Positions 6,994 through 19,563 of a stretch of 23,889 nucleotides of DNA are shown here, one piece after another. Position 1 is the stretch's first letter, and every line of letters begins with the position of its first letter. The DNA is taken from positions 1-23,889 of IMG/VR virus record IMGVR_UViG_3300006789_000159; one strand, given 5' to 3'. This stretch comes from a virus. Both the position numbers and the translations under genes were made by a program. The notes below the pieces were generated by a model. It worked only from the letters and a program-made list of their open reading frames with translations. It had not been told where the DNA came from and did no database searches.

Positions 6994-7413
6994 TTATGTT
7001 CCTGAGCCTCCGAAGATTACAGCAGAGTTGTCGTTTCCAAATACACCGTACTCAATCAGTGAGTCCGCTTTCGTAGCGTGAACAGCGTATGTCTTGTCTG
7101 GCGCTAAAGGGATAAAAGCAAATTCGCCACCCCCAATTTTAGCAGAGAAAGCCGTGTCGCTTTCGGTTTCGTTACGTAAGTATACGTAGTTCTCCAGCTC
7201 AGGCTCTATATTCTTAATGTATAAGTAAGCCCTGTCATTCTTGTCGTTAGCCAAGTAAACGATCATGTCGTTTGTATCGACAGCCGTACCTTTTACTTTA
7301 GCTCTGATAAGGCTACCAGAATCACAAGTAAGGTTGGCTACAACAGAAAGCGTGAGCGGAGACGTAAGTACATCCGCGCTGTTTAATGATAGTGATGCCC
7401 GTACTGTAGCCAT
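6994..7413 (-). CDS. Virion-like protein, fourth and most diverged member of a tandem paralogous block
   Basis: This 139-residue protein begins MATVRASLSLNSADVLTSPL, the same N-terminal pattern as the three genes upstream (MATTTATxTLNSxDITGxP). Its middle strand (RAYLYIKNIEPELENYVYL) aligns with HKVYIKN in the others, and EFAFIPLAPDKTYAVHA aligns with their GDWxFxPYxGTLDV. The ending LIEYGVFG matches IEYGVFSQ. Overall identity is low, so this is the oldest or fastest-changing copy. Its ATG overlaps the stop of the upstream gene by one base (TAATG), which implies translational coupling. A repeated surface or fibre-type virion subunit is plausible; function is unknown. Confidence 0.8.
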   Translation of the reverse strand: MATVRASLSLNSADVLTSPLTLSVVANLTCDSGSLIRAKVKGTAVDTNDMIVYLANDKNDRAYLYIKNIEPELENYVYLRNETESDTAFSAKIGGGEFAFIPLAPDKTYAVHATKADSLIEYGVFGNDNSAVIFGGSGT

Positions 7414-8159
7414 TATACTGCTTGATAGATTAACATTGATTCTAAAGTCATAGATGTCGCTACGCTAGGCTTTATATAGATGTCTGAAAGAGACTTCGTT
7501 CCCGTAACAGTTGTTGCCACCGCTCCCGTTCCGTCACCTGCCGTCGTAGTAACCGCTTCGGTTGTATCAATCTCTAGGTCAGCCCTTGAGGTTCTCGATG
7601 TAAAGGTTACTACCGCAGTATCTACCGATGTGGTCCAGTTCGGGTAGTAAGCATTATTAATTTGTGACGCTACGTTAGCTACTGTTGAATTAGCTGCGAC
7701 AACGGTTACACCATCGAAAGCAAATGTGTCTCCAGCAGCCCATGTATTGGCAACAGTTACAGTAAATGCCTCTTTAGTTCCCGAAGCTGAGTTCCAAGGA
7801 ATAAAAGCAAAGTCACCTGCATATAATCTCCCTACCTCTGTCAGTCCAGTAATAGACTGGTCAGTAGCATCGTGAGCGCCTGTGGCTCGGTCTCCAGTTA
7901 GATATACAGTAAAGTACTCAGAGCTTACAACAGATAAGTTTTTTAGATAAACCTTATGAGACTTATCGTCTGCGTAATCGTCAGAACGATACAAGACGTA
8001 AGGGGTTACAGATTCCGTTTCTCTTCTCGCTAACCCAGACGTTGATTGCAACCCGATACCTGTACCAGCCTCTGTAAGGTTGGTAGTGGCAGATATGTTG
8101 ATAGGGCTGCTCGTAAGATCAGCGCTTGATATAGTTAGTGATGCTGTAGTAGTTGGCAT
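7413..8159 (-). CDS. Virion-like paralogue carrying an inserted extra domain
   Basis: This 248-residue protein begins MPTTTASLTISSADLTSSPI and follows the family plan up to GDFAFIPW (about residue 122), including SHKVYLKN. At about residues 128-221 it has a segment absent from its paralogues: TVTVANTWAAGDTFAFDG, then a helix (TVANVASQINNAYY) and strands ending TVTGTKSL. The family C-terminal strand then resumes (MTLESMLIYQ). Similar 'TWAAGDTFTFDGVTV' segments recur in phage virion proteins as small accessory domains, by recall. The insertion nearly doubles the length relative to 136-139 residues. Its stop overlaps the next start. It may be the member that carries a specialised surface contact, which is inference. 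Confidence 0.8.
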   Translation of the reverse strand: MPTTTASLTISSADLTSSPINISATTNLTEAGTGIGLQSTSGLARRETESVTPYVLYRSDDYADDKSHKVYLKNLSVVSSEYFTVYLTGDRATGAHDATDQSITGLTEVGRLYAGDFAFIPWNSASGTKEAFTVTVANTWAAGDTFAFDGVTVVAANSTVANVASQINNAYYPNWTTSVDTAVVTFTSRTSRADLEIDTTEAVTTTAGDGTGAVATTVTGTKSLSDIYIKPSVATSMTLESMLIYQAV

Positions 8160-8168
8160 AAGAGGCTA

Positions 8169-8579
8169 TTAGGAGGCTGCTGATTGAGAGAAAACACCAT
8201 ACTCGATAGTAACGCCAGTAGCAATGGTAGTCACCTGAACATCAAGAGTTCCTCCATACGGAATAAACATCCAATCCCCAGGGTAAAGCCTTCCTATAAT
8301 TACATTACCCTCAAGCTCAACAAGGATGTAGTCGCTTGTTCCAGAGCTTGTGTTTCTAATGTAAACCTTATGGGCTACCGTAGTATCAGCATAGATAGAA
8401 TCCGCTACAACAACCGTATCGGTTTGTGCAGCAGCATACGTCCTACTGGTGATCCCTGTAAACTCATCCAAGCCAGTAGATGCCCCAGCCTTTGTTAAGG
8501 TGGCCGTTTGGGTCATGCTAAAAGGATGACCTGTGATGTCCCCGCTATTAAGAGTGAGTGTTGCTGTTGTCGTTGCCAT
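8169..8579 (-). CDS. Virion-like protein, tandem paralogue
   Basis: This 136-residue protein begins MATTTATLTLNSGDITGHPF and ends VTIEYGVFSQSAAS. By hand alignment it shares about 89 of 136 positions (roughly two thirds) with the gene immediately upstream, including HKVYI, GTSD, GRLYPGDW and GTLDV, which points to a fairly recent tandem duplication. It is entirely beta-rich, with no signal peptide, membrane segment or Cys. It lies in the unit that begins at the promoter-like motif 9024-9031 and runs through scaffold and capsid. Function is unknown; its position suggests a virion component made in many copies. Confidence 0.8.
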   Translation of the reverse strand: MATTTATLTLNSGDITGHPFSMTQTATLTKAGASTGLDEFTGITSRTYAAAQTDTVVVADSIYADTTVAHKVYIRNTSSGTSDYILVELEGNVIIGRLYPGDWMFIPYGGTLDVQVTTIATGVTIEYGVFSQSAAS

Positions 8580-8590
8580 GTTCTATAAAA

Positions 8591-9004
8591 TTACGATGCT
8601 ACAGATTGAGAGAAAACGGCGTACTCTACTTTCATTCCAACAGCGCTAGTGTCTATGTCTACGTCTAGAGTTCCGTCATAAGGGAAGAAGCACCAGTCCC
8701 CAGGGTAAAGCCTACCCATAAGCACGTTACTCCCTCCAAGCTCAACGGTAACAAAGTCGCTTGTTCCAGTCGAAGAGTTTTTAATATAAACCTTATGAGA
8801 AGTTGTGGTATCTACATAGGTTCCGTTAGGGACAATATTGGTTGCTGTTTGAGCGGCAGCATACACTACAGTCGTAACCCCTGTAAACTGATCCAGACCA
8901 GTCTCGCTTGCCGCCTTTGTCAAAGTAGCAGTTTTGGTAAGGTTCAGAGGGTCCCCTGTAATGTCAGGGCTGTTAAGTGTTATAGTTGCTGTTGTAGTTG
9001 CCAT
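8591..9004 (-). CDS. Virion-like protein, first copy of the tandem paralogous block
   Basis: This 137-residue protein begins MATTTATITLNSPDITGDPL and ends MKVEYAVFSQSVAS. It is the closest relative of the next gene downstream (8169-8579). The core motif is MGRLYPGDWCFFPYDGTLDV. It is the first gene after the promoter-like motif at 9024-9031, 19 bases before its ATG, and so heads the head-gene unit. There is no export signal. Its position ahead of structural genes and its multiplication suggest a virion surface subunit, but no known family is recognised. Confidence 0.8.
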   Translation of the reverse strand: MATTTATITLNSPDITGDPLNLTKTATLTKAASETGLDQFTGVTTVVYAAAQTATNIVPNGTYVDTTTSHKVYIKNSSTGTSDFVTVELGGSNVLMGRLYPGDWCFFPYDGTLDVDIDTSAVGMKVEYAVFSQSVAS

Positions 9005-9023
9005 TATTGCCTGTTATCTTCTG

Positions 9024-9031
9024 CAAATATA
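9024..9031 (-). promoter_or_regulatory. Promoter-like TATATTTG element heading the head-gene unit
   Basis: The minus strand reads CTATATTTGCAGAA, a 14-base string also found upstream of the portal gene (19563-19556 and flanks). It matches the Bacteroidota -7 consensus TAnnTTTG. It lies in the 31-base gap after the envelope cassette and 19 bases before the first paralogue. No convincing -33 TTTG is seen. Confidence 0.55.
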
Positions 9032-9035
9032 GTAA

Positions 9036-9236
9036 TTATTTCTTGGTGGGTTTTTTGTGGCTGACAAGCTTAAATTTAGCCTCTTCTATAGCCCCAGCGT
9101 GAGGTGCGTACTCCCCTTTCATAAGGAAGTATCTACCCCGATCCGTCATCCAATGAAACCCATCAGGAGCAGCGACAGCTTTTGTCGCTTGGCTTATATT
9201 CAGCTTACCCCCTTTATTTTTCTTTACTGCGTTCAT
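9036..9236 (-). CDS. Small basic protein, last gene of the envelope cassette
   Basis: This 66-residue, Lys-rich protein contains two similar aromatic stretches, DGFHWMTDRGRYFLM and GEYAPHAGAIEEAKFKLV, and a basic tail (SHKKPTKK). No signal peptide or membrane helix is visible. Its ATG overlaps the TGA of the exported thioredoxin-like gene (TGATG), so translation is probably coupled. The His and aromatic content with basic ends could suit nucleic-acid or envelope binding, but this is speculation. The promoter-like motif of the next unit begins 4 bases after its stop codon, so it closes the cassette. Confidence 0.75.
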   Translation of the reverse strand: MNAVKKNKGGKLNISQATKAVAAPDGFHWMTDRGRYFLMKGEYAPHAGAIEEAKFKLVSHKKPTKK

Positions 9237-9595
9237 CAGAAAGAGCTCATTAGTATTTCATCTACAACGTCCTGAACATCGCTTTGCGTTGCTTCTATAG
9301 CCATCATGATATTCGCCTGGAACCTCTCTTCTTCCTCCCCGTCGTTAAAAACCACGATAGTAGGGACCACAACAATCTTGTGCTCTTTCTGCATATCTGG
9401 CCTCACCATGATGTCAATCCTAGAAACCTCACAGTCGCTTAACGTGTCTATCCAGTCCACGCTGTTCTGAGCGTTAAAGGCTGCATTGAACTCTATTACA
9501 CATATATCGCTTGAGCAAACATCCTTGTTCTCGAAAGAAACAAAAACAACAGTAGAGTATAGAGCAAAAAGACAGAGGGTAATGAGGGTTTTCAT
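9236..9595 (-). CDS. Exported thioredoxin-fold protein lacking the CxxC active site
   Basis: This 119-residue protein has an N-terminal hydrophobic segment (about residues 1-19, MKTLITLCLFALYSTVVFV), read as a signal peptide or anchor. The body follows the thioredoxin plan: first strand VIEF at 33-36, the active-site loop position at 37-44, a second strand (SRIDIMV) and the conserved cis-proline loop VVPTIVVFNDGEE with Pro78, then a C-terminal helix. Where thioredoxins have WCGPC, this protein has F40-N41-A42-Q43-N44, so both catalytic Cys are replaced by Asn. Two other Cys (27 and 32) flank the first strand, with a third at 55. It is probably a non-redox thioredoxin-fold protein in the periplasm. 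Close coupling to its neighbours places it in the envelope cassette. Confidence 0.75.
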   Translation of the reverse strand: MKTLITLCLFALYSTVVFVSFENKDVCSSDICVIEFNAAFNAQNSVDWIDTLSDCEVSRIDIMVRPDMQKEHKIVVVPTIVVFNDGEEEERFQANIMMAIEATQSDVQDVVDEILMSSF

Positions 9596-9602
9596 GGCAG
9601 GG

Positions 9603-9887
9603 TTAATTTAATTTATCGATCTTATCTTCAATTCTTTTCATGTCGTCTTTTATTTCAGAGACATCTTCTTGTGTAGACATAATCGTTTGTCTGATAAGCT
9701 GATCTTTCATGTCGAACTCCATCCTCGTTATCTCTGGGTCTGGTGCGATAGGGAGAGCCTTTGCTTCCGCTATATCAGCCTGAAGGACAAACCACATACT
9801 AATAATAGTAGCCATAGCCGCCCCTATCCCCGCTAAAGTCTTAATGCTTACATTAAAACCTAAGTTTTCATTCAACTCCTTGCCCAT
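9603..9887 (-). CDS. Small inner-membrane protein with periplasmic coiled coil (spanin- or holin-like)
   Basis: This 94-residue protein has one clear membrane segment at about residues 15-37 (KTLAGIGAAMATIISMWFVL) after a short charged N-terminus. A Pro-rich link (ALPIAPDPE) follows, then an amphipathic helix with heptad-like spacing to the end (DVSEIKDDMKRIEDKIDKLN). One N-terminal helix plus an outer coiled coil is the layout of inner-membrane spanins, though some holins and membrane-anchored assembly factors look similar. No lipoprotein partner (o-spanin) and no lysozyme or amidase are seen nearby, so a lysis role is uncertain. It lies 1 base after the outer-membrane barrel gene and 7 bases before the thioredoxin-like gene. 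Confidence 0.78.
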   Translation of the reverse strand: MGKELNENLGFNVSIKTLAGIGAAMATIISMWFVLQADIAEAKALPIAPDPEITRMEFDMKDQLIRQTIMSTQEDVSEIKDDMKRIEDKIDKLN

Positions 9888-9888
9888 A

Positions 9889-10929
9889 TTAGATAATTAC
9901 GTAATTTATACCAAGTGAAAAGTCATGCCATGTCCTGTTCCAATACTTATTGTATTTTCCTTCCAGGAATAACCCTAAACTTTTGTTTACTTTAACCCCA
10001 AAGATAAGCCCTCCTGAGTAGTCCATCCATTGCTCTCCGTTATTGAAGTTGTGATAGGAGAACTCATCCTCTAGGTTTAAATGATAGGGCATTACGTTCC
10101 CCCAACTGTGAAGCCAAAAGGTTTTTTCGTAGTGATAAAAATCAAACCCAGCAACCACAGAGTATTCTATCTTCTGAGGGAGCTCACTGATCTTCCTGTC
10201 TACGTAATCACCTAAGACCTGCGGGATAACCACCTCCTCCCATACCTCTACGCTGTTAGCAACAACCTCCCCTTCAGGGGATAAAAACTCGTTGGTTTCA
10301 AAGTCCACATTGTACCCCTCTTGAAGAGCCAGATAAGTATAGTGAATGTTGTTATTGGCTAACAACCAGTCAGATAGCGGATCATACCCATAGGGCATAG
10401 AGGCCCGCTGAACCGTCCCGACATTAAAAGAAAACTTCTTACCTAAGTTTATACGAGCCCTTTGAGAGGCTTCGAAGTACTCTACGTCAGCGAACCCGTC
10501 TGGCAGGTACTCCACCTTGGCTATAAAGTTCTTACCTACATACCTTAAAAAGTGGTTCTGATTTAAAAACTCCTGCCCTCTTTGACGCATATACGCCCCT
10601 TCGAACAGGAACTCAAACCCCTTCACTTTACCTACTGTAGCGGCATCGCTATATGTTTTCTCTTCGCCGCTATAAAATACGTTAGCCCTGTTCTCATATC
10701 CAAACCGAGCAATCTTGCGTACACCAGCGGTAAAAGAAAAGTCCATTGGTGTTGACACGATGTCAGACTGAAGTTGTCCTGTATAAACAGAGAACGCGCT
10801 CTCATCAGCCACAGAGTTACTGCCCCCTAAAGAGCTGTAAAAAGTAGCGAACTTAAGCGTCTTCTTCAGTAGCTGAGCGTTAGAGCTCAAGCAAAGAAAA
10901 GAGAATAAAATGGCTAACGCAACCCTCAT
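9889..10929 (-). CDS. Outer-membrane beta-barrel-like protein
   Basis: This 346-residue protein has a clear signal peptide (MRVALAILFSFLCLSSNAQ) with the Ala-Gln junction common in Bacteroidota exported proteins. The mature part alternates hydrophobic and polar residues in many short strands rich in Tyr, Phe and Gly (for example KGFEFLFEGAYMRQRG, ARINLGKKFSFNVGT, FGVKVNKSLGLFLEGKYN). It ends in a typical barrel strand (HDFSLGINYVII). I do not see the NPAxAG motif of PorP/SprF proteins. Barrels are rarely encoded among phage structural genes; a receptor-masking (superinfection exclusion) or surface-anchoring role for the T9SS-exported neighbour are possibilities. Its ATG overlaps the stop of the 56-residue gene (ATGA), showing it belongs to the cassette. 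Confidence 0.75.
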   Translation of the reverse strand: MRVALAILFSFLCLSSNAQLLKKTLKFATFYSSLGGSNSVADESAFSVYTGQLQSDIVSTPMDFSFTAGVRKIARFGYENRANVFYSGEEKTYSDAATVGKVKGFEFLFEGAYMRQRGQEFLNQNHFLRYVGKNFIAKVEYLPDGFADVEYFEASQRARINLGKKFSFNVGTVQRASMPYGYDPLSDWLLANNNIHYTYLALQEGYNVDFETNEFLSPEGEVVANSVEVWEEVVIPQVLGDYVDRKISELPQKIEYSVVAGFDFYHYEKTFWLHSWGNVMPYHLNLEDEFSYHNFNNGEQWMDYSGGLIFGVKVNKSLGLFLEGKYNKYWNRTWHDFSLGINYVII

Positions 10930-11096
10930 ACCTCGAACCCGAAATTGAGGATCATAAATCTAACTCTCTTGCACTTCTCGTCTTTAGAACAAAAAAGGCA
11001 TAGACGAAGTTCGAGGACGGTTAACCGACCCAACCTAAGAGACACTTCATATTTTGCCTTCTTGTTTCCTTTTCCCCAGCTGTTAATCCAATTCAT
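10926..11096 (-). CDS. 56-residue protein coupled between the T9SS protein and the barrel
   Basis: The 163-base gap between two larger genes is filled by an open frame from ATG at 11096 to TGA at 10926. The ATG overlaps the upstream TGA (ATGA) and its own TGA overlaps the downstream ATG (ATGA), so both junctions are four-base coupling overlaps. This double fit is strong evidence that it is translated. The product is basic, starts MNWINSWGKGNKKAKYEVSL, has two Cys-containing stretches (LCLFCSKDEKC) and ends RVRFMILNFGFEV. No signal peptide or clear membrane helix is visible. I do not recognise the family. Confidence 0.75.
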   Translation of the reverse strand: MNWINSWGKGNKKAKYEVSLRLGRLTVLELRLCLFCSKDEKCKRVRFMILNFGFEV

Positions 11097-13120
11097 AATT
11101 TCATAATTTTTTTGTTAATAGATATACCGTTGTACTCAACGATAACTTGATAGAGCCCTTTAGAGAGCCCTGAGAGGTCTAAAACCTTTTCTGTGGTACT
11201 AGACACTACTCGTTGACCAAAGTTGTTGTATACGGCTGTAATGACCTTATACGGACATCTTATGGTTAATGTGTTTTCTACGGGGTTGGGGTAGATCTGT
11301 ACCCTACCCATGTAATAAGGGATGTCAGCGGGCATGCCTTCTTGGCAGTAGCTGTATATCTCGCCGCAAATATCGTCCCATTCGGATCCGCAGCAGTTAG
11401 GGTCCACCTCGATAACCCACGAGTAACAGACATCATTAGCCCAGTAAGGGTCTCCAGGCTCGCCTACGCACCCCGCGTCATATAGGCATAGGCTGTTGTC
11501 CGCCGTGTTGGCCTCCTCGTCATAGTTAAAAGCGTTAACGTCAACGCACCCTACTAGCACCTCGATGCAAGAGTCAATATCTACATTGGCTTCAGCGTCG
11601 TAGTTAAGAGCATCGGGGTCCGTACAGCCGAACATAGCCACCGTCTCGCAGCTACCGTCATCAAAATCAGCGACATAGCCCTGCTCGTAGTACTCTAAAT
11701 ACCCCGCCTGCATGCACCCTGCATTATAATAACAGCTTCCGTCTTCTGAGTTTACGGCAGGATCATAGTTCTGTGCGTCAGTATCCATACACCCATAAAC
11801 GTACGGCTCACAGAAGTTATCGCAAGTAGGTGTAGCCACATACCTATAAGGAAACTTCAACAAAGCATCTGTCCAAGGGTTTGTACCCCCGTCTAAAAGC
11901 ACTCCTTGAGGTCCAGATAGAGAAAACCCACACTGACCAGCCGTAGACTCTGCGTTACCTCCAGTAAAGAAGTACACGCTTACCTCTTCATTGCTATTCA
12001 GTTGGAGAGGTATGTCTATTTGGTTCCCATCAATAGGCTGCATCTCATACGGACCATACAAGCTATCCCCTTGTGCCACACCTAACCAGCTTCCAAACCA
12101 TCCATCCCAACCCCCGTCGATAAGGGTTAGTGTATAATCACAAGAATCCTCCAGCGCCATCGTGTTGCAGTTCTCGTCGTAGTTAAAAGCCTCGGTATCT
12201 GTACAGCCTAAAACAACAGGGGTGAGGCAACTACCATCATCTTCAATAGCAAAAGAATTATACTCTAAATAACCCTCGTCAGTACACCCAGTAGAAACAG
12301 GTGGGTCACAGTGTGGGACAACAAAAGCGGGGGAGGAAAGCGTATCGTACTGCGTTTCCCCTCCAACGTAGAAAAAGCCGTGATCGCATAAAGACAAAAC
12401 AACAAAAAAACCGTCAACACCTCCCCAACACGAGCCACACATACCGTCCCCGTAAGTGTCATATATAGTAGCTACAAGGCTATCCCCTTCAGTAGCGCAC
12501 ACGCTAGACATATTAGTATACTGAGCCCCCGTGTAATTCCCACCCCAATTTAAAACCTCCTCTGTCCCGTATACGGATATATCCCAACTAATCTCCTCGA
12601 AGTACGTATCAGCGGCAAGGAGGGCAATTATGTTTGTCTGTCCCTCTGGGCAAGCGACAGGCGGCGTATCACATACATCGGGATACATCGCCCAAGGGTT
12701 GTAATTCAAAGCCAATTCATCCATGCACCCGTATATAGGTATCTCACACGGGTCAACTACAAAGGGAATGGTAAGTAGGGGCGAATCGAAATCACCTACG
12801 TATTCATCCAGCCCACACGTATTGGTTAGACTAAACCACCCTTCCCCGAAATTGCAGCATATTCCATCCCCATACGAGTCGTACATAGCAAAAAGATAAC
12901 TGCCCACACTTAAGGTGACTACAGTCTCTGTTAAAGAATTGCTAGTAAACGGGTCTGAAGTCTCTATAATTTCTCCGCTGATAGAAGAGAAAATCTTCCA
13001 GCTTGTCTCGCCTGCGTACTGATCGGTTTGCACCGAGACGTTCACCCACCCGCTCTGTCCAAGAACGAGACATGGGATAAAAGAAAAAAGGAGCAGCAGG
13101 CATGACTTTGTTATTCCCAT
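11093..13120 (-). CDS. Secreted Cys-rich repeat protein with T9SS type A C-terminal sorting domain
   Basis: This 675-residue protein has a signal peptide at residues 1-21 (LLLLFSFIPCLVLG, then Q22). Two copies of an ETSWKI...YDSYGDGICC-type beta domain occupy about residues 24-125 and 163-270; a related domain at about 326-437 starts TLTLIDGGWDGW. At least seven repeats of the form GCxDxxAxNYDxxAxxxDGSC lie around 131, 278, 305, 443, 468, 498 and 524. A Cys-rich segment (DPNCCGSEWDDIC) precedes the end. Residues 605-675 are a T9SS type A sorting domain: VQIYPNPVENTLTI, then YNNFGQRVV, LDLSGLSKGLYQVIVE and KKIMKL. Such domains direct cargo through the Bacteroidota outer membrane, after which they are cut off and the protein released or attached to the surface. 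It heads the envelope cassette, with a promoter-like motif 4 bases before the ATG. It may have been acquired from a host. Confidence 0.9.
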   Translation of the reverse strand: MGITKSCLLLLFSFIPCLVLGQSGWVNVSVQTDQYAGETSWKIFSSISGEIIETSDPFTSNSLTETVVTLSVGSYLFAMYDSYGDGICCNFGEGWFSLTNTCGLDEYVGDFDSPLLTIPFVVDPCEIPIYGCMDELALNYNPWAMYPDVCDTPPVACPEGQTNIIALLAADTYFEEISWDISVYGTEEVLNWGGNYTGAQYTNMSSVCATEGDSLVATIYDTYGDGMCGSCWGGVDGFFVVLSLCDHGFFYVGGETQYDTLSSPAFVVPHCDPPVSTGCTDEGYLEYNSFAIEDDGSCLTPVVLGCTDTEAFNYDENCNTMALEDSCDYTLTLIDGGWDGWFGSWLGVAQGDSLYGPYEMQPIDGNQIDIPLQLNSNEEVSVYFFTGGNAESTAGQCGFSLSGPQGVLLDGGTNPWTDALLKFPYRYVATPTCDNFCEPYVYGCMDTDAQNYDPAVNSEDGSCYYNAGCMQAGYLEYYEQGYVADFDDGSCETVAMFGCTDPDALNYDAEANVDIDSCIEVLVGCVDVNAFNYDEEANTADNSLCLYDAGCVGEPGDPYWANDVCYSWVIEVDPNCCGSEWDDICGEIYSYCQEGMPADIPYYMGRVQIYPNPVENTLTIRCPYKVITAVYNNFGQRVVSSTTEKVLDLSGLSKGLYQVIVEYNGISINKKIMKL

Positions 13121-13124
13121 ACTG

Positions 13125-13132
13125 CAAAGGTA
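13125..13132 (-). promoter_or_regulatory. Promoter-like TACCTTTG element before the T9SS gene
   Basis: The minus strand reads TACCTTTGCAGTATG: a TAnnTTTG element followed by CAGT and the start codon of the T9SS-exported protein. It would begin the envelope cassette as a separate unit, with a leaderless or very short-leader message. The CAG after the element is shared with the motifs at 9024 and 19556. Confidence 0.45.
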
Positions 13133-13426: not shown

Positions 13427-14794
13427 TTATGAATTAAAAGCAGCATATACGCCAGATATTGCTGTAGTGCCAAGCCAAGGGGCTATAGCATTACATGTCT
13501 GTCCAGAGTTTTGTACTATACCCTGCCGATTGTATACATCGGTGCTTCCTGTAATAAAAGATGCCGCTGTATTGACGGTGGTTCCATAGTTTTGGACTCC
13601 AAAAACGTATAGCTTATTGTTGTTTATCGCGGCCCATACATAATCTGATTGGCTAGTCGCATGCCTAGCGCATTTAATAGCAGTAAACTGATCGCTACCT
13701 CCAAAAGAACCGAGAGTTCCCGCCGACGCAGTACCGCTAGTTTTTACATGGTAGCCAGACTTAGCATCAACAGTTGTGCCGCTCCCTGTACCCCAAGTAG
13801 CCTCCCCCGCAAACCACACCTCGCCGCTAGTGTTTATTAACATAGTTTTGTCATCCGAGCAAGACCCGCTCACCCAGCTCGTCCCAAACGTTCCGCTACC
13901 ATCTATCTTCCCTGACTGAGTAAAAGAAGTTACATCAGAGGTTGAGTTATTTCCAAACCGCTCGTCGCCGCCATCGCCCGTTACATACAGCTTCCCCGCT
14001 AAAATAGCTATAGTGTGGTTATACCCCGCTTCAACAAAAGTCCAGTCTTCACCAGCGTCAGCCGCCACCCTTTCTGTCCACGAGGTATCGTCGCCAGACG
14101 TATCCCCCGAACCGCACTTACCGTCCCTATTTTCTCCTGTCGTTAGCAGCGATCTATCCCCCGAAGCGCCTTTAATAGCGGCGCTGTGGTTATCCCCCGC
14201 AGAAACAGCAAACCAATCGGTATCGCTCCCTATCTGCGTTAGCGTTGTTACATCGGTGGTATTCCCCGTTCCTAGCTGACCGTCACCGTTCTCTCCAACG
14301 ACAAAGAGCTTGCCCGCGTTAATAGCTAAAATAAAGTCACTACCACAGGATACATCCGTCCACGCTGTGTCATCACTAACCCCTGTGACAGAAGTTGCTT
14401 GCGTTAACGTGGCGGCACTCGATGATTGGTGCACATAGTTTGTGCTATAACTGTACATCCACAGCTTCCCATCGGTATCGATACCCGCGAATACGTATTT
14501 ACTAGCATCTAGCTTGCTCCAGTTTTTTGCGCTTACTTGATCTATAGCGAACTGCCCGTCTTTATCGCTAGAATAATTTACAACCACCTCCGCATGCCAA
14601 CTATATAATCCAGATAAAGGTTCACCTGCGTTCTTAGCGGTACCATAATGAATTAATCCCGTTGTAGGTACCGTTTCTGTGTATGTCCCTGAGTCGGCTA
14701 CAGGATTATATGCTCCTCCAGCAGCGATATCCTGTCCGTTTATTGATGCTATGTTTCCCACGTCTATTCCGTTATATGATGATATGTCTGGCAT
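13427..14794 (-). CDS. Tail/fibre protein with RCC1-like beta-propeller
   Basis: The first ~28 residues of this 455-residue protein (SSYNGIDVGNIASINGQDIA) have the short repeated N-terminal docking look seen in some marine phage fibre proteins. A region up to about residue 90 follows. From about residue 92 to 445 there are six to seven repeats of RCC1 type: WTDVSCGSDFILAINAGKLFVVGENGDGQLG, split here as WTDVSCGSDFILAI and KLFVVGENGDGQLGTG, then WFAVSAGDNHSAAIKG with LLTTGENRDGKCGSG, then WTFVEAGYNHTIAIL with KLYVTGDGGDERFG, then weaker ones. The Gly-rich turn and the His/Asp-containing loop recur. RCC1 propellers bind proteins and other ligands; here a host-contact tip is the natural guess. 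The start overlaps the collagen-like gene's stop (TAATG), so the two are coupled. Confidence 0.82.
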   Translation of the reverse strand: MPDISSYNGIDVGNIASINGQDIAAGGAYNPVADSGTYTETVPTTGLIHYGTAKNAGEPLSGLYSWHAEVVVNYSSDKDGQFAIDQVSAKNWSKLDASKYVFAGIDTDGKLWMYSYSTNYVHQSSSAATLTQATSVTGVSDDTAWTDVSCGSDFILAINAGKLFVVGENGDGQLGTGNTTDVTTLTQIGSDTDWFAVSAGDNHSAAIKGASGDRSLLTTGENRDGKCGSGDTSGDDTSWTERVAADAGEDWTFVEAGYNHTIAILAGKLYVTGDGGDERFGNNSTSDVTSFTQSGKIDGSGTFGTSWVSGSCSDDKTMLINTSGEVWFAGEATWGTGSGTTVDAKSGYHVKTSGTASAGTLGSFGGSDQFTAIKCARHATSQSDYVWAAINNNKLYVFGVQNYGTTVNTAASFITGSTDVYNRQGIVQNSGQTCNAIAPWLGTTAISGVYAAFNS

Positions 14795-16623
14795 TATGCA
14801 AGAACGATAAAGTCGTTAGATGGGTTGAACCAAATTTGGCCGTCGCTGCTGTCTAAGCAGTATCCAACTACTCTTACTATATCTCCTGTGGCGGAAGGGG
14901 CTGTGCTTGTAATATCCCCTGCTGTAGTAGAGATATAAAGCTCATCAGCTATAGTTCCAGGGTCATGGTCTAAAGTAAACATACCGCGTAACAACATGCC
15001 ATCGACATCTGGGTCGGTACCTAAAGCCATAGCTAAAAGCACTCCTCCAGAAGTGGCTACTGCGTCAGCATCTGTAGCTGCCCAAGTGCCGTCTGCCTTA
15101 AGATAGCAAAGCTCCCCAGCCGTTGTGCTACCTGTTCCAATTTTTATAATATCTCCTTGAGCTTCAAAATGCGTATCGCTTCCTTTAGCGTATAAGTGTC
15201 CTTTCGTTGGAGCTATTAGCTCTGAGAAGGTTTTAGCGCCTGAGAAGGTTTGAGTACCCGATAAATGAGCTGTATCAGCATCTAGATAAGCGCTAGCTAC
15301 AGCCGTACCTTGCCAAACTCCAGTTCCAATAGTTCCTACTGTAGCAATACTTGCGTGACCAGCGACAGGACTTAACACAGAGGCGATAGCTGTACCACCG
15401 ATTGTTATAGCGTCAGCCTCTAGAGTACCATCGAAATACCCATCTTTAAACTCTAAATCGTCTGTACCTAAATCTACAATAGCGTTTGTGGTTGGTGTAA
15501 GAGCACCGTCCACAAGAGTAAGCTGATCTTCCCCTCCCGCTCTAAACCTAATGTTATTGTCAGTAGTAAAATCAATATCGTTATCAGCGTCTCTACCAAT
15601 AACTAAACTAGCATTTAGTACAGAGGTGATTGTCGTCTGAGCGGCCGTAATAGCTACGTCATTAGCGTTAGCCGTTATACCGTCGCCGCCAATAACATTC
15701 AATGTAGCATCTCCGCTTGTGGCTCCGCCAGTCATGCCTGATCCAGCCACAACGGATGTTATATCACCCGAACCTCCTCCGCTAGCGGCTGCCCATTTAA
15801 GCCCTGAAGCCTCACTGCTGTCTGCGGTTAATACCTGATCATCATCACCAACAGCTAAAGCAACTGGGTCTGTAGTCCCATCGCCAACAAGTATAGATCC
15901 TTTAGCCGTTACATCAAGGGCTGTAACAGCGCCTGTACCGCTTCCAAGAAGTACATACCCGTCAGTAAGAGAAGTGGCCCCTGTTCCTCCCTTCGCAACC
16001 GTAACAGTATCTGAAAGGGTAGAGCCCGCTGCTGTAACCGTAATACCCGCGCTCCCATCAAAGTTTACCCCATTAATAGCACGAGGCGTAGTCAACGTGG
16101 CGGCACTACCAGTAGTGTCCTGGTTAAGTGTACCTACGGTAAACGTAAGGTCGTAAGGATCTCCGTCCGTACCGTGAGATGTATCGGTCCAGTTAATACC
16201 CAGCCCGCCAGCACCAATAAACTTAACTTCCTTGCCGTTCGATATGGTTACCTCGTCTCCGCTATCGTCTTCAAGCTGAAATGTTGTAACTCCGTCAGAC
16301 CCGTCAGACCCGTCAGATCCGTCAGCACCTGCTGCCCCTGTAGCTCCTGTAGCTCCTGTAGCTCCTGCTGCCCCCGTAGCTCCTGTATCCCCTTTTGCCC
16401 CCGTAGACCCCGTAGGTCCAGTTGGGCCAGTAGCGCCAGTAGCGCCAGTAGCCCCTGTAGCTCCCGTCTCACCTTTGTTTACCTGGGTGACACTTAGAGA
16501 GGTAGAGGCCGCTTCTGTTATAGATACCGAGTTCGTCGTTGTAGAACCCAAAGTAACAGAAGTACCACCATTCACAGTAGCCGTGACAGTATTACCACCA
16601 CTAGAAGTTACTGTTATAGCCAT
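14794..16623 (-). CDS. Collagen-like tail fibre protein
   Basis: This 609-residue protein has a Ser/Thr/Val-rich N-terminus (residues 1-50) that probably attaches to the tail. Twenty Gly-X-Y triplets follow at residues 51-110 ([12 protein letters not shown] and similar), a collagen-like triple-helix shaft. The rest is a beta-rich Gly/Thr/Asp fibre body with stretches typical of phage fibres, such as [20 protein letters not shown] and, near the end, [19 protein letters not shown]. It has no signal peptide. The protein probably forms a trimer that carries or accompanies the RCC1 protein encoded next. It follows the adaptor-like gene with a 1-base gap. No intramolecular chaperone domain is evident at the end. 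Confidence 0.85.
16294..16473 (-). repeat. Gly-X-Y coding repeat tract
   Basis: This in-frame tract encodes 20 consecutive Gly-X-Y triplets in the fibre gene. Neighbouring 9-base units are nearly identical (for example repeated GTAGCTCCT and CCGTCAGAC on the plus strand), so slippage or unequal recombination could change shaft length. The tract also creates overlapping open frames on both strands that I regard as artefacts. Confidence 0.8.
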
Positions 16624-19526: not shown

Positions 19527-19555
19527 GATGATAGTGAAGAGCTAGGCATATTCTG

Positions 19556-19563
19556 CAAATATA
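19556..19563 (-). promoter_or_regulatory. Promoter-like TATATTTG element before the portal gene
   Basis: The minus strand reads CTATATTTGCAGAA, identical over 14 bases to the motif at 9024-9031. It fits the Bacteroidota -7 consensus TAnnTTTG, in the 42-base gap between TerL and portal and 29 bases before the portal ATG. No clear -33 TTTG is seen. The preserved long match in non-coding gaps favours a real late promoter. Confidence 0.55.

Follow-up and report, generated by a model that had tools for sequence, protein, structure and literature searches.

A fixed block of four phage genes was found in hundreds of uncultured phages, the hosts of which are probably marine Bacteroidota. The products of these genes, here designated A, C, D and E, are predicted to lie at the cell surface, outer membrane, inner membrane and periplasm, respectively. 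Among IMG/VR loci with complete flanks (5.5 kb or more to either side of the seed), 169 of 169 contained the whole set, always on one strand, a joint occurrence that is more than chance. We tentatively favour, with a probability of about 0.4, the reading that this block is a late trans-envelope module serving the outer-membrane step of virion release.

The window phage and its late operon

The whole stretch of DNA analysed here (the window) is a 23.9-kb fragment from an IMG/VR virus record, the block of which is also carried at 100% identity by a 62,033-bp contig (L002/G001) that was examined in its entirety. The window portal shares ~31% identity with the portals of Cellulophaga phage phi38:1 and its relatives, which points to a probable Bacteroidota host. 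In the longer contig a single late operon runs from terminase through portal, fibre-like genes, the block, small structural-type genes and a scaffold-like gene to the MCP, followed by more late genes, a 3149-aa protein and then a holin (phrog_3427). The fibre-like genes beside A in the window encode a collagen-like fibre protein (14794-16623) and, between it and the block, an RCC1-like beta-propeller protein (13427-14794; RCC1 1.1e-12). Also present in the window are four tandem paralogous small proteins of 137, 136, 248 and 139 aa (6994-9004). They belong to a family of which 153 members lie near the block in relatives, and we regard them as repeated structural or decoration proteins. A 191-aa protein (L088; contig G001 61377-61952) with an SLT-like 'GYVESRDNYEAVNP..ATGRYQM' stretch, spotted by eye, is a possible candidate for the cell-wall hydrolase of the window phage.

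Six consecutive ORFs had been described in the block region by an earlier note made from the sequence alone. All of them are present on the minus strand, with the junctions that it had given: ATGA at 11093-11096 and at 10926-10929, 1 base at 9888, 7 bases at 9596-9602, and TGATG between E and F (9236). The features are as follows:

11093..13120, minus strand: gene A, 675-aa T9SS type A cargo; homologues in 163 dereplicated loci
10926..11096, minus strand: gene B, 56-aa accessory protein, optional; overlaps A and C through ATGA
9889..10929, minus strand: gene C, 346-aa predicted outer-membrane beta-barrel of ~12 strands, new family; at least 568 IMG/VR relatives
9603..9887, minus strand: gene D, 94 aa, TM near the N-terminus plus helix; at least 593 IMG/VR relatives
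9236..9595, minus strand: gene E, 119-aa predicted exported thioredoxin-fold protein; at least 566 IMG/VR relatives
9036..9236, minus strand: gene F, 66-aa small basic protein; neighbour, outside the core
13122..13132, minus strand: promoter-like TACCTTTGCAG, with its TACCTTTG part at 13125-13132, 4 bases before the A start
9021..9031, minus strand: promoter-like TATATTTGCAG after F, with TATATTTG at 9024-9031; precedes the next late gene (8591-9004)

The promoter-like elements reported before A and after F were thus recovered. Plain TANNTTTG is weakly enriched in the window (25 copies against 17 expected), a count near chance that we did not take to demonstrate a promoter. Clear enrichment was seen for the longer TANNTTTGCAG, with 4 copies against 0.27 expected (9021-9031, 13122-13132, 19553-19563 and 2916-2926). 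Genes preceded by a copy include A, that of the 137-aa protein and that of the portal. Judging from these sites, TANNTTTGCAG is a likely late promoter consensus of the window phage, but it is not special to the block because a copy also stands before the portal gene. Among relatives, the 4-base spacing between promoter and A was repeated in 6 of 40 loci of gene order ACDE, and a promoter common to the block was seen in some loci only.

Composition and distribution of the block

A first IMG/VR scan recovered 179 relatives of C; the counts listed above for D, E and C come from later scans seeded separately on D, on E and on a distant C. The 169 loci with complete flanks comprised 42 seeded on D, 45 on E and 82 on C, the three sets having some contigs in common. 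Dereplication left 163 loci, in which three gene orders were distinguished: CDEA (94), ACDE (52) and DEAC (17). D and E are adjacent in 145 of these, and the cargo and barrel genes adjoin at 39 of 69 A-C junctions.

A comparison of related genomes for the whole block had been proposed in the earlier note, with the independent occurrence of its genes in other phages as evidence against it. For A, C, D and E such independent occurrence was looked for and not found. The unit is nevertheless smaller than the six genes originally described: the B cluster occurs in only 36 of 163 loci and the F cluster in 17, leading us to reject a six-gene block, to treat B (which returned no family match) as optional and to place F outside the unit. 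In contrast to the constant presence of A, C, D and E, neighbours such as u92 and RCC1 are rare, being shared by 6 of about 80 relatives.

Searches of 50,697 phage records returned no match to A, C or D, and none was found in cellular genomes except on phage-like contigs; for E, phage isolates yielded weak, partial thioredoxin matches in Streptomyces phages only. In the related isolates phi38:1 and elemoE, the block is absent between the portal and the next structural genes. Both isolates have TM proteins near their lysis genes, and phi38:1 has inner-membrane-anchored proteins beside its endolysin.

Predicted properties of the encoded proteins

The initial descriptions of A as a T9SS-exported repeat protein, of C as an outer-membrane barrel and of D as a one-TM protein were borne out by the present predictions, whereas that of E as an exported thioredoxin-fold protein held for export and fold, and the catalytic cysteines proved absent. 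A comprises a Sec signal peptide, a DSYGDG-type N-terminal domain, GCxDxxAxNYN repeats and a C-terminal sorting domain (609-672) of type A (PF18962, 1.6e-9; TIGR04183 over its cut-off), that is, the features of a T9SS type A cargo. An N-terminal hydrophobic segment was found in 148 of 154 homologues, and 28 of 32 viral records encode exactly one PF18962 protein. A is also the fastest-evolving member of the block, its N-terminal part having a median identity of 27% versus 60% for C, and ranges from 554 to 1465 aa among relatives, one of which possesses a carbohydrate-binding domain.

The barrel fold of C was predicted with a mean AF2 pLDDT of 74. Around 100 of its 346 positions are invariant among 41 members, which share a conserved insertion at residues 178-252; a long loop (75-103) and residues 178-206 of the insertion are conserved as much as the strands, which fits the presence of conserved partners. 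No relatives were found by sequence in Pfam, PHROG, NCBIfam or the PDB. Structure searches returned generic porins and autotransporter barrels only, and therefore permit no functional call. Similarly, none of the 41 members matched PorP/SprF in Pfam, and fold comparison gave generic barrels only. The C-terminal twin cysteines through which SprF and PorG bond to GldK (PMC12635249) were not found, and the mature part of C is cysteine-free in 35 of 41 members, so that an SprF-like disulfide linkage was rejected. As judged by these comparisons, the C family is a predicted barrel of no known family.

A host origin of the C gene was also considered and dismissed, as no cellular homologue was seen: the three matches among 84,980 species genomes correspond to two phage-like contigs in MAGs (L082 and L084) and a 3.8-kb contig of identical gene order (L083), and the match in 1 of 395 genomes of the phylum is the same contig as L084. 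The two phage-like contigs both bear the block, L084 being a 63-kb contig in a Sphingobacteriales MAG and L082 belonging to a Flavobacteriales MAG. The MAG containing L084 has 15 PF18962 matches, one of them from the phage, which fits a T9SS host.

D consists of a single TM segment and a charged helical C-terminal part carrying the invariant motif RMEFDMKDQLxRQTIMxTQEDV. Its periplasmic part is predicted from hydropathy at ~45 aa, cysteine is absent from the D of the window, and database matches were weak, some being to holin or hemolysin families. E has a signal peptide and a profile match to PDB thioredoxins (E 4e-8), indicating the thioredoxin fold. At the active site, the catalytic CxxC is replaced by NxxN (FNAxFNxxN) in 146 of 163 homologues and occurs in 0 of 163, on which ground a redox role was rejected. 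Replacement of these cysteines while the fold is kept argues for a conserved, non-redox binding role of E.

Genomic position and association with lysis genes

The block lies between portal and MCP in the window, in agreement with its earlier placement inside a phage structural region, but sister phages carry it just behind the holin. Specifically, fourteen records with a window-type portal (60-72% identity) and MCP (49-74%) possess the block at either of two places: between portal and MCP (G001, G002, G004, G007, G010, G011, G012 and G014), or 0 to 1.6 kb behind the holin (G005, G006, G008, G016, G018 and G019). Seven more records, of up to 158 kb, possess the block and lack both portal and MCP homologues. 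Because two positions are found within one clade sharing portal and MCP, the block behaves as a unit of its own. Evolutionary distances of portal and C are uncorrelated (24 loci) and those of C and TerL are correlated, mixed results from which we draw no firm claim on transfer of the block.

That the four are ordinary virion or morphogenesis proteins located in a structural region by chance is very improbable. Such a reading is consistent with the portal-MCP placement in the window but at odds with the signal peptides of A, C and E and with the change of position relative to virion genes inside a single clade.

In many loci the spacing between a block gene and an adjoining holin or holin-like gene ranges from -4 to +12 bases; in G005 and G006, for example, holin and A overlap by 4 bases (ATGA). 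A two-TM family of ~83 aa (GFxAF...GKDLVINEFIYDSF; e.g. L075:9952-10203), which often overlaps A by 4 bases, is probably an undescribed holin family, being holin-like by topology only. A lysis-category gene is located within 3.5 kb of the block in 75 of 163 loci, or 90 of 163 counting DUF5675; these are lower bounds given that flanks are often incomplete, drawn from interrelated loci and with no late-region baseline. The families concerned include holin phrog_3427, the M15-type endolysin phrog_894, phrog_33083 and an amidase endolysin. Also adjoining the block, in L071 (11965-12567) and relatives, is a putative L,D-transpeptidase-like lysis enzyme with an SAGCQVI motif (phrog_3000/phrog_33083).

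Exported proteins and the search for spanins

Apart from A, C, D, E and the holin, the 62-kb contig of the window phage encodes no convincing membrane or exported protein. A similar pattern was observed in ten further near-full contigs. The additions were few: G011 and G019 each encode a single exported protein, G006 and G019 have small lipoproteins (on the opposite strand, close to the block or elsewhere), G008 has a second A-like protein, and in G030 a gene is inserted between D and E. A crude screen based only on hydropathy and lipobox patterns recognised no spanin in these 11 near-full genomes, nor did they contain a convincing ORF for a unimolecular spanin, combining a lipobox and a C-terminal TM in one protein. 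For comparison, recognisable spanins are also missing from 91 of 677 surveyed phages (PMC6139136).

By hydropathy, D possesses the inner-membrane plus periplasmic-helix topology of an i-spanin, with a short periplasmic part. The window phage has no convincing lipobox gene for an o-spanin lipoprotein, and the window D lacks the periplasmic cysteine that is present in the i- or o-spanin of 507 of 528 systems (PMC6139136). As both the lipoprotein partner and the cysteine features were looked for and not found, we do not class the block as a spanin, although its mode of action may be similar.

A model for the block and its alternatives

The earlier note had assigned the products to the inner membrane, periplasm, outer membrane and surface, and the predicted locations do describe a coherent envelope block. 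In the model that we propose, A, C, D and E would work together late in infection as one trans-envelope module that the phage encodes for use in T9SS hosts. The inner membrane would anchor D, leaving its conserved helix to project into the periplasm; there E, its redox cysteines lost, would serve as a non-catalytic binding adaptor. C would be seated in the outer membrane, and A would reach the outer face by way of Sec followed by the host T9SS. Through contacts among the four, the module would stand in for a spanin and bridge the two membranes, while A would act on the outer side. Of the readings of the four locations, such a chain, running late in infection from the inner membrane to the surface, is the simplest.

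The observations from which this model draws are the co-occurrence of the genes on a single strand, their sequence features and predicted folds, lysis-gene proximity and the lack of a recognisable spanin, and a role in release is favoured because of the universality of the block, its inferred lateness, its linkage to lysis genes and the spanin absence. A real counter-argument is that the holin is ~25-36 kb from the block in the window phage and its portal-MCP group. The short, cysteine-free periplasmic part of D and the missing lipoprotein o-spanin also speak against it. A possible extension, which we hold less firmly than the release role itself, is that the block represents a new class of exit system, in which, for spanin-less phages of Bacteroidota, a complex of D, E and C together with T9SS-sent A would open the outer membrane after holin and endolysin had acted.

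A somewhat unlikely alternative is surface display or receptor blocking, with C, D and E delivering or anchoring A such that infected cells or debris stop binding progeny or competing phages. Superinfection exclusion or competition has been proposed for the T9SS cargo of Cryophage (PMC7468147). A is surface-directed, adjoins the fibre-like genes of the window and is the most variable member in sequence and length; its fast change fits surface display better than lysis. On the other hand, a type A cargo should need only host PorV/PorU (PorV: PMC12618676), and not C, D and E, and display accords less well with the late position and the holin or endolysin genes linked to about half of the loci. 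No PADLOC match was obtained, which says little about exclusion genes, the library being weighted towards bacterial defence and less towards exclusion by phages. The suggestion in the earlier note of a remodelling or exclusion system thus stands in that exclusion is possible; it is not favoured, given the late operon, the lysis genes nearby and the status of the block as the sole convincing envelope set besides the holin in the 62-kb contig.

More doubtful is a dedicated T9SS export and anchoring pair, in which C would be a phage shuttle or anchor barrel for A, in a PorP/SprF-like role, and D and E a tether, with an adhesive coat on infected cells or a halt to gliding as the proposed outcome. 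The frequent adjacency of cargo and barrel genes and the carbohydrate-binding domain on one A are in keeping with this arrangement, and so is the frequent linkage in F. johnsoniae of T9SS type B cargo genes to PorP/SprF-like shuttle genes (PMC12618676). The sorting domain of A, however, is of type A and not type B, C has no PorP/SprF match, and mature C, cysteine-free in most members, is without the means for the SprF/PorG-GldK disulfide (PMC12635249).

Whichever role applies, a set that is fixed across hundreds of contigs with differing portal and capsid genes, and at two or more genomic positions, must do something important. A role in release would reveal how the outer membrane is opened by phages in T9SS-bearing Bacteroidota, abundant marine organisms, and display would represent a widespread takeover of the surface through a host secretion system; under either, the T9SS becomes a testable phage dependency.

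Comparison with known systems

Phage-encoded T9SS cargo has already been published for Cryophage (Bellas et al. 2020; PMC7468147), and A likewise has a type A sorting domain and varies between relatives. Unlike A, the Cryophage cargo proteins are enzymes or a PA14 protein, and the available part of that report describes no conserved barrel, coiled-coil or thioredoxin-fold partners. E resembles thioredoxin (PF00085) in its fold and cis-proline loop and differs in its NxxN active site, so is not a redox enzyme of that type. To our knowledge, an outer-membrane barrel, a thioredoxin fold and a T9SS cargo are not parts of any known spanin. The block would share with two-component and unimolecular spanins (Rz/Rz1, T1 gp11; PMC6139136) the bridging of both membranes by late proteins, D having by hydropathy an i-spanin-like topology with a short periplasmic part; unlike them, it has neither a lipoprotein partner nor a cysteine in D. 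As with SprB/SprF of F. johnsoniae, a cargo gene can stand next to an outer-membrane barrel gene, but A is a type A cargo, and C, with neither a PorP/SprF match nor twin cysteines, is accompanied by D and E. T5 Llp, a receptor blocker at the outer membrane, is likewise a phage envelope protein with its gene near that of the receptor-binding protein; Llp is a single small lipoprotein, in contrast to the several proteins of the block.

The open-access literature and annotation libraries searched yielded no description of the four-gene module, the NxxN thioredoxin or the barrel family. If the block does serve virion release, its function, opening the outer membrane, would be of a known kind, carried out by new machinery.
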